A stretch of DNA of 64,000 nucleotides from Rhodothermales bacterium (GTDB lineage: Bacteria > Bacteroidota > Rhodothermia > Rhodothermales > Bin80): contig JAJEDR010000062.1 in assembly GCA_022821385.1 (NCBI GenBank), positions 1-64,000 on the forward strand, written 5' to 3'. The position numbers and the translations under genes are program-made. The notes beneath the pieces are model-generated. The model was given only the letters and a program-made list of their open reading frames with translations, was not told the DNA's origin and ran no database searches. Numbering within the stretch: the first letter of the stretch is position 1; each line of letters starts with the position of its first letter. This document shows positions 54,368 through 56,950 of the stretch, piece after piece.

Positions 54368-54375
54368 CAATTTTA
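54368..54375. repeat. 8-bp target site duplication, left copy (CAATTTTA)
   Basis: Identical to 56943-56950 and directly abuts the 31-bp IR. Confidence 0.9.
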
Positions 54376-54434
54376 GGGAATTATATACCTGAGTACCCAA
54401 AATAACTTTGAGATTAAGGTAAAGACTGCTGATT

Positions 54435-54608
54435 TTACCGATTCTTGATTGTACGTGGAGGCGTGTTTAGAAGAATCTTTGCGAACTCCTCTGGCTCCAT
54501 AGGAATTGATCCGCTTACCTCTGACCAGTCCTTTCTCGGACGACCTCGGGGCCTGCTGGTTTTCTTCGTCTCAGTGGACGATTTAGGCTTTTTAGGTTTT
54601 TGCTTCAT
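54435..54608 (-). CDS. Small AT-hook protein (57 aa), third passenger gene
   Basis: MKQKPKKPKSSTETKKTSRPRGRPRKDWSEVSGSIPMEPEEFAKILLNTPPRTIKNR; RPRGRPRK is an AT-hook core. Starts 11 bp after the MTase stop; absent from the ORF track because of its length. Confidence 0.75.
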   Translation of the reverse strand: MKQKPKKPKSSTETKKTSRPRGRPRKDWSEVSGSIPMEPEEFAKILLNTPPRTIKNR

Positions 54609-54619
54609 GGTTACAAAGA

Positions 54620-55789
54620 TTAAGCTGCTAAACGTAGATGCTTCTGCAAGTACTCCATACCCCGATCTCCTTTAACGCTGTTACAGTGTGCACAAAGCAA
54701 CTGCAAGTTGTCAATATGATCCGTACCGCCTTTGGATCTGGCAATGATATGATCCACCGTGAGATTTCTGAACTGGAAGTGGGTATCACATCCGGCACAT
54801 AGGCCTTGCTGTGCACCATATAACTTCGTTTTATTCTCCTTGCAGTTATACCTGGGCAACTTGCCCAAATCCGTACGTTGAGGTACGTCCTTCCTGAGAA
54901 AGACCTGTTCCAAGATAGATTTTTGTTTAACTCCGTCTTCGTGATATACGGCACCTTGATTCTGACGTAAGCGAAAATTTACCAATTCATAAGCCTTTTC
55001 CGAAATGTCAATGCCCACCCAGTTACGGTCCAGTAATTCCGCTGCTACGCACGTCGTAGCACATCCACAGAATGGATCAAATACCAAGTCTCCCTCATTA
55101 CTGGATACCTTGATGATGCGCTCTAAAAGTTTGAGCGGCTTCTGAGTACGGAAACCAGTACTTTCTGGCTGATTACCCCGTAGGGCTGAGATATCCCAAA
55201 CATCTCGCATCGTGACCATTCGGTAAGGACCAACTTTATCTTCAAAGATTTCTATGTTAGAAAATCCATATTTGTGTGCTATGTATGATTTTTCTTTTTG
55301 AGGATAGAATTGATATGATGTTGTTTTGCCATATGACAGAATAATATCATGTTTTCGGCCTAGCCATCTTTTACCGGCTCCACCAGTTTTATAATACCAT
55401 ACAATTTCATTGATAAAATTCTTTCTACCAAAGATGACATCCATCATGATCTTCAGGTAGTGGCTCATAGTCGGATCACAATGTAGATAGATTGAGCCCG
55501 TAGGTTTGAGCAACCTCTTCATTTCCAGTAAGCGTACGGCCATGTAGATCAGATAGGATTTATCGCTATCCCTTTGGGTTGCCATGATCACACGCCATAA
55601 CGGTTTGTTCTTATTCTGCAATAAGTCCAACCATTCTACATCCAGGTCACTGAGGGTCCATACATCCTTGAATTCAGCTCCAGCCGCCTTGCTTCCAATG
55701 GGAGCTGCATAATTCGCGTTACTGTTGAATGGGGGATCCAGGTAGATCAGGTCTACGGTCTCAGAGTTCATGCCACGCATGATATACAA
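54620..55789 (-). CDS. Beta-class DNA methyltransferase fused to C-terminal HNH endonuclease domain (5' end out of frame as sequenced)
   Basis: DLIYLDPPFNSNANY (motif IV) precedes DPFCGCATTCVAAELLDRNWVGIDIS (motif I); C-term CAGC...LTVDHIIARSKGGTDHIDNLQLLCAHCNSVKGDRG is HNH. The reading frame continues upstream through NFRAKTIWAGDN to the poly-C tract. Confidence 0.9.
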   Translation of the reverse strand: MYIMRGMNSETVDLIYLDPPFNSNANYAAPIGSKAAGAEFKDVWTLSDLDVEWLDLLQNKNKPLWRVIMATQRDSDKSYLIYMAVRLLEMKRLLKPTGSIYLHCDPTMSHYLKIMMDVIFGRKNFINEIVWYYKTGGAGKRWLGRKHDIILSYGKTTSYQFYPQKEKSYIAHKYGFSNIEIFEDKVGPYRMVTMRDVWDISALRGNQPESTGFRTQKPLKLLERIIKVSSNEGDLVFDPFCGCATTCVAAELLDRNWVGIDISEKAYELVNFRLRQNQGAVYHEDGVKQKSILEQVFLRKDVPQRTDLGKLPRYNCKENKTKLYGAQQGLCAGCDTHFQFRNLTVDHIIARSKGGTDHIDNLQLLCAHCNSVKGDRGMEYLQKHLRLAA

Positions 55790-55825
55790 ATTGTCACCGG
55801 CCCAAATGGTCTTGGCACGAAAATT

Positions 55826-55836
55826 GGGGGGGGGGG
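55826..55836. repeat. Homopolymer tract G11 (C11 on the coding strand) in the MTase start region
   Basis: Eleven consecutive G on + strand. ATG at 55853 (minus) is out of frame with the MTase at 11 nt and in frame at 10 or 13 nt. Confidence 0.9.
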
Positions 55837-55857
55837 CTTTTGTCTGTGGGCATTGTG

Positions 55858-56829
55858 CTATGACCTTGTTTCTGGATTCCGAGTCAGAATCTTGTAAGTG
55901 ATCTGTTTTCCAAACAGGCCCTTCGCAGTTTCGCCCATTTGCTCAACCGTATCCAACCGGCGTAGGTTATGCCGGCCAACAAACTCGTCTACGTAACGCT
56001 GCAAATGCTCTTTGGACATCTTATGGTAGGTACCATAGTAGCCCCGCTTCAACAACGACCAAAAGGATTCCATGCCGTTGATATGCGCCATACCGTCAAC
56101 ATATTGTTTGACCGAGTGCTTAACTGTTGCGTGAGCGGCTCTCTTTAACGCCTGGTAAGCTTTTGCGTCATCGGTGTAGGTTTGGGCCTTTTGCCTTGAC
56201 GTGCTGTACACGAAGCCTGTGAGCGTTTCAGCGGTGGTATTTTCAACAACCTGTGCCTGTATCTGCTTTGTAGTACGGTCTTTCGTTCCAACTACGGCCG
56301 TTTTGCCAACGGTTCCCCGCCCGGCATTGAGTTTCTTATCTGCGTGCTTGTTCTTTTCCTTGCCACCAATATAGGTCTCATCTACTTCAACCGGACCGTT
56401 GAACTGTTCAAGGTCATAGTTCCATGCTTCACGGATTCGGTGGGCCAGATACCATGCAGTTTTTTGTGTAACATCCAGATCACGGTGCAATTTCATACTG
56501 GACGTTCCCTTGATTCCGACATTGAGAATATAGATGGCCATAGCCCAGGTCTGATAATCCAGCTTGGTATCCTGCATGACCGTTCCTATGCGGACACTGA
56601 ACCGTTTCCTGCATGATCTGCACCGATAAGGCATTGTTGGGTGCTTCGCCCTAGTCTGGACGATTGTTGATCCACAATGCGGACAGGCAGGTTCATTTCC
56701 CCAGCGTTGCTGTGCAAACCACGCTTCGGATGTTTCATTATCGGGAAACATCTTCATCAACTTTCTCCATGAGAGACCTTGGCGGTACGATTTACCTGGA
56801 CCTGTTCTTTGCTTCTCTTTCTTCGCCAT
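55858..56829 (-). CDS. IS1595-family (ISXO2-like) transposase
   Basis: Zinc ribbon CPHCGSTIVQTRAKHPTMPYRCRSCRKRFSVRIGTVM; VDETYIGGKEKNKH; HINGMESFWSLLKRGYYGTYHKMSKEHLQRYVDEFVGRHNLR. Full length. Confidence 0.95.
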   Translation of the reverse strand: MAKKEKQRTGPGKSYRQGLSWRKLMKMFPDNETSEAWFAQQRWGNEPACPHCGSTIVQTRAKHPTMPYRCRSCRKRFSVRIGTVMQDTKLDYQTWAMAIYILNVGIKGTSSMKLHRDLDVTQKTAWYLAHRIREAWNYDLEQFNGPVEVDETYIGGKEKNKHADKKLNAGRGTVGKTAVVGTKDRTTKQIQAQVVENTTAETLTGFVYSTSRQKAQTYTDDAKAYQALKRAAHATVKHSVKQYVDGMAHINGMESFWSLLKRGYYGTYHKMSKEHLQRYVDEFVGRHNLRRLDTVEQMGETAKGLFGKQITYKILTRNPETRS

Positions 56830-56942
56830 TGTCGCGAGTATTTTATTGTGTCTGAGTACCCAATATACGCATTATAACGAAATAAAGTTTCAAAATATAC
56901 ACGATTACTTTGTTATTTTGGGTACTCAGGTATATATTTCCC

Positions 56943-56950
56943 CAATTTTA
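56943..56950. repeat. 8-bp target site duplication, right copy (CAATTTTA)
   Basis: Identical to 54368-54375 and directly abuts the 31-bp IR. Confidence 0.9.

Follow-up and report, generated by a model that had tools for sequence, protein, structure and literature searches.

What does a run of 11 cytidines do just inside the start of a DNA methyltransferase gene that it throws out of frame? The question arises in the window, the 64,000-nucleotide stretch of a Rhodothermales bacterium contig (JAJEDR010000062.1) analyzed here, where the gene in question encodes a methyltransferase joined to a C-terminal HNH domain (Table 1). On the minus strand, the start region reads ATG CCC ACA GAC AAA AG, followed by the C tract and then by AATTTTCGTGCC. 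As sequenced, translation from the proximal ATG at 55853 yields MPTDKSPPPQFSCQDHLGR and ends after 19 amino acids, whereas at C10 (and equally at C7 or C13) the same ATG would be fused to NFRAKTIWAGDNLYIMRGM..., giving a protein of ~410 amino acids including the leader. The initial annotation had described the minus-strand C11, this ATG and the 19-residue stop, and had predicted the full-length enzyme of ~410 amino acids at C10 or C13; its coordinates and both translations are correct, and beyond the tract the frame continues uninterrupted for 401 codons, as far as 54620.

The arrangement probably represents a phase-variable methyltransferase-HNH enzyme that travels as a passenger of an IS1595-family element and is governed by the length of its poly-C tract. 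Slipped-strand mispairing within the run of Cs that closely follows the start codon would add or remove one or more Cs and thereby bring the proximal ATG into the reading frame of the enzyme or take it out again, such that C11 would correspond to the off state (the 19-amino acid stub) and C10 or C13 to the on state (~410 amino acids). The best reading of the assembled consensus, with its C11, is that the enzyme is off. We infer that the tract changes length within the population and that enzyme production and DNA methylation would follow, and the locus could be a phasevarion in the sense of controlling a regulon. A switch at the DNA level is supported because the tracts of relatives differ in length, because two sister elements carry C13 and C11, because the protein is under purifying selection, and because the surrounding transposon is complete. 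With a simple sequence repeat near the start whose length sets the frame, the gene has the organization of a phase-variable DNA methyltransferase.

The position of the true start is central to this reading. The mechanically called open reading frame opens at TTG 55789, downstream of the GDN segment, and therefore lacks NFRAKTIWAGDN. This segment belongs to the enzyme, since it is conserved across the aligned relatives, T8 and D13 without exception, and since the alignment of solved Type III Mod chains to the profile begins at position 6 or 7. Initiation at the called TTG or at an ATG inside the gene can be ruled out, given that the GDN segment is conserved and that 54 of 54 non-tract relatives start upstream of it. 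The called frame is thus truncated at its 5′ end, as had been suspected. The opposite outcome, in which homologs would begin downstream without the KTIWAGDN segment, is not what is seen, as nearly all of them include this segment and an in-frame start.

The gene lies within a complete IS1595-type transposon of 2,567 bp (54376-56942; ends GGG...CCC), and the hallmarks of the family are all present: a transposase, terminal inverted repeats and an 8-bp target duplication. The inverted repeats (34 nt, 94% complementary) enclose the transposase and methyltransferase genes, and the latter begins five bases past the transposase stop codon. The proposal that the gene sits on a mobile element is borne out by these features, including the perfect duplication that flanks them. 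The AT-hook-like frame that forms the third gene has a homolog in a related IS1595 element of G003 (L116), with no match in PADLOC or PHROGs. The sister elements of G110 and G111 likewise have 8-bp duplications and carry an IS1595-type transposase inside inverted repeats, there divergent from the methyltransferase gene. At one G111 locus (L261 3175-8039, G111:C4), an IS1595 element with a poly-C methyltransferase has landed inside the poly-C methyltransferase gene carried by an older element, and target duplications accompany both of the nested transposons. In two genomes (L022 and L018), the methyltransferase-HNH gene apparently abuts a tRNA-like 3′ end that precedes it, a hint that copies not housed in IS1595 elements may integrate in another way.

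Table 1. Coordinates of the transposon, its genes and the proposed switch in the window.
Feature	Coordinates	Strand	Remark
8-bp target site duplication CAATTTTA, left	54368..54375		
Left terminal inverted repeat	54376..54406		
57-aa AT-hook-like ORF	54435..54608	-	PRGRP; PRGRPRKDW; third gene of the element, after the methyltransferase
Intact methyltransferase-HNH frame after the tract	54620..55825	-	401 codons and stop; joined to ATG 55853 at C10
C-terminal HNH domain (PF14279/PF01844)	54635..54799	-	Pfam match 4e-14
N6_N4_Mtase domain (Pfam PF01555)	54980..55756	-	profile match 4e-45
Frame as sequenced from proximal ATG 55853 (OFF)	55794..55853	-	19 codons and stop
C11 tract, proposed switch	55826..55836	-	
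IS1595-type transposase (ISXO2-like)	55858..56829	-	directly upstream of the methyltransferase, same strand
Right terminal inverted repeat	56912..56942		
8-bp target site duplication CAATTTTA, right	56943..56950		perfect match to the left copy

The methyltransferase belongs to the permuted beta class, as it contains an N6_N4_Mtase domain in which motif IV (DPPF) precedes motif I (DPFCG). Both ends of the protein are conserved between copies and the center, which corresponds to the target-recognition region, is highly divergent; between G003 and G007, identity along the chain runs at ~80-90%, drops to 27-40% and returns to 73-100%. This is the pattern expected of exchanged target-recognition domains, and different copies therefore probably mark different motifs. 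The element consists only of the transposase, the methyltransferase-HNH gene and the 57-amino acid frame, with no Res neighbor of the kind that accompanies a Type III Mod subunit.

Relatives of the methyltransferase are common in metagenome-assembled genomes of several phyla, with at least 19 in one genome among the matches listed. Their start regions (123 compared, a tract copy being one with at least 8 Cs) fall into two kinds. Non-tract copies place an ATG or GTG a few codons ahead of a conserved N[F/W/V] and have an in-frame start in all 54 that were scored. An in-frame start is absent from six of nine assembled tract copies versus none of the 54 non-tract copies (Fisher p = 1.2e-6, a value that ignores relatedness). 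Searching by pattern through 55 genomes, and through 252 genomes of the class, added two more tract copies. Within the window's genus, tracts occur in the window, G003, G004, G005, G007 and twice in G001; beyond it, they occur in G110 and (two copies) G111, which represent one other genus of the order, and in the Proteobacteria AqS3 and Rhodobacteraceae GM7ARB2. The initial annotation had called for a comparison of tract length across related copies, and this comparison finds the tract at the same site with differing lengths: C9 in G003, G004, G005 and G007, C14 and an interrupted C6 in G001, C13 in G110, C11 and C10 in G111, and C8 in both AqS3 and the Rhodobacteraceae genome. Runs of at least 8 Cs are rare in the window's genome (8 in 3.39 Mb, as counted by pattern searches; ~1e-4 expected per 40-nt stretch), and the recurrence of the tract at one site in diverged relatives is far beyond chance. 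Mapping the tract label onto a tree of 87 relatives takes at least six changes, and therefore the tract has been gained or lost repeatedly at the same site. No relatives were found in IMG/VR, and the plasmids and phages searched yielded only relatives below 60% identity.

These distributions bear on the possibility that the tract is an error of assembly or sequencing, the true length being C10 and the gene simply on, or that the out-of-frame copies are decaying pseudogenes. The C11 of a draft assembly is error-prone, the genomes compared are mostly draft metagenome assemblies in which homopolymers of 11-13 can be miscalled, and broken genes account for four of the 12 tract copies (G004, the two in G001 and the second one in G111). 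However, out-of-frame tracts of C8-C9 recur in unrelated assemblies, and an error in the window copy would still leave a C8-C13 tract at a conserved site. Decay, for its part, is at odds with the long stop-free frames of the window gene, G003, G005, G007, AqS3 and G110, and with the strongly purifying selection on G003 and G007. Over the first 145 codons, dN/dS is 0.053 between G003 and G007, two out-of-frame copies, and 0.075 between G110 and G111, values that are approximate because dS is high and synonymous sites are near saturation. Rough as these values are, the protein is clearly maintained by strong purifying selection, out-of-frame copies included, which would not be expected of a permanently silent gene. 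An origin in error or decay is thus very unlikely. All 17 genomes of the family have MutS, so hypermutability through loss of mismatch repair is ruled out as the cause.

A paired length comparison is offered by the transposons of G110 and G111, which are 87% identical over 1,683 bp and ~90% identical upstream of the start. Both contain ATGACAATAG, followed by C13 in G110 or C11 in G111, and the same ATG is in frame at C11 and out of frame at C13; these are sister elements of different species rather than members of one population. In G110, two codons that precede the proximal ATG, a GTG at 54 nt and an ATG at 102 nt upstream, are in frame, such that this copy may not be fully off, although both are located around a TATAAAT box and seem less likely as starts. 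Taken with the homologous tracts of differing length and with the evidence for selection, the C13/C11 pair supports the original claim that the poly-C tract sets the frame of a beta-class methyltransferase-HNH gene.

A different role for the tract would be to promote programmed +1 ribosomal frameshifting, in which the tract is purposely maintained in the +1 frame and a proline tRNA slips forward by one base on the C run by the start codon, supplying a small, constant dose of full-length enzyme. There is precedent for such an event: with CCC-C at codon 2, next to AUG, +1 frameshifting in E. coli reaches up to 1% (PMC4519876). The G003 and G005 copies carry AUG-CCC-CCC-CCC. Within the window's genus, +1 is needed in six of seven copies, four intact and two broken; all six copies with a proximal ATG other than the dead C14 share this frame (p ~0.004 for sharing any one frame if frames were drawn in random thirds). 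A pure programmed frameshift was suggested by the first six copies, all of which were +1, but is weakened by those from G110, G111, AqS3 and the Rhodobacteraceae: one G111 copy and the Rhodobacteraceae copy are already in frame, and a shift of +2 or -1 is required in AqS3, in G110 and in the second copy of G111. The +1 requirement is conserved within the genus, whereas intact copies elsewhere need 0 or +2, and non-tract relatives simply start in frame. Counted over all 12 tract copies, three have the proximal start in frame, six need +1 and three need +2, numbers that are compatible with equal thirds; the eight unbroken copies (two in frame, four +1, two +2) show no departure from equal thirds either. 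The presence of all three frames favors length switching over one fixed programmed frameshift, which we regard as unlikely.

Slippage of RNA polymerase on the C tract, which the initial annotation had raised and which would generate mRNAs of mixed length with some in frame, is extremely improbable. Homopolymers of 9-13 would in principle be long enough for it; however, transcriptional slippage in bacteria is best documented on runs of A and T rather than C, and by itself it leaves the differing genomic tract lengths of sister elements unexplained.

Length switching at the DNA level is the reading to which any contribution from ribosomal slippage would be added. A leaky off state, in which +1 slippage at AUG-CCC-C supplements the length switch, is a live addition, kept alive because six of the seven copies in the window's genus need +1. 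In its fullest form, which is tentative and rather unlikely, the tract would double as a DNA length switch and a ribosomal slippery site, with +1 lengths (AUG-CCC-CCC-C) giving a low leaky dose and +2 lengths none, thus constituting a three-level switch moved between hosts by transposons.

Comparisons can be drawn with known systems. Like the Type III Mod proteins ModA, ModD, ModH, ModM and ModS, the window enzyme is a beta-class methyltransferase switched, as proposed here, by a simple sequence repeat within the reading frame, with conserved ends and a highly variable target-recognition region (PMC11475388). Unlike them, it is shorter, is fused to HNH, has no adjacent Res subunit and is a transposon passenger, and the hosts of its kind are uncultured environmental bacteria rather than pathogens. 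The phase-variable Type IIG enzyme of Campylobacter jejuni differs in architecture from the C-terminal HNH fusion seen here and is not known as a transposon passenger. It resembles the predicted window enzyme in combining methyltransferase and putative nuclease parts in a single chain (PMC4889913). Compared with IS1595-family elements that carry passengers, the window element has the same transposase, terminal inverted repeats and 8-bp target duplication, but its passenger bears a poly-C tract of variable length. A literature search found no description of such a poly-C passenger, which is weak evidence of novelty because many journals lay outside the search.

Most descriptions of known phasevarions concern systems resident in host-adapted pathogens (PMC11475388, PMC7394358). 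Were the proposed switch to operate, the presence of a phase-variable methyltransferase among transposon cargo would make the epigenetic switch itself able to spread and insert at new sites, and random switching would confine the cost of the methyltransferase or nuclease to part of the population. The surveyed family, with members in several bacterial phyla and well over a dozen copies in some genomes, could serve as a test bed outside pathogens.

Other C runs are found in the same genomes. Two G111 methyltransferase genes (L107 5169 and L108 4763) have a second, internal C tract in the coding sequence, C7 in one and C8 in the other, and the C8 copy is frameshifted there. The window's genome also contains a C12 at the 3′ end of a 202-amino acid frame, 41 nt before a 173-amino acid frame (G000:C56:53010-53021, L114), and a C16 near a contig end (G000:C37:23549-23564, L113). 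Relatives in the genus (e.g., L125 and L126) have up to ~40 runs of at least 9 Cs, many of them apparently intergenic and consisting of C9-13 followed by ATTTTT, and at one apparently orthologous site in two species of the genus the run lengths are 9 and 10.
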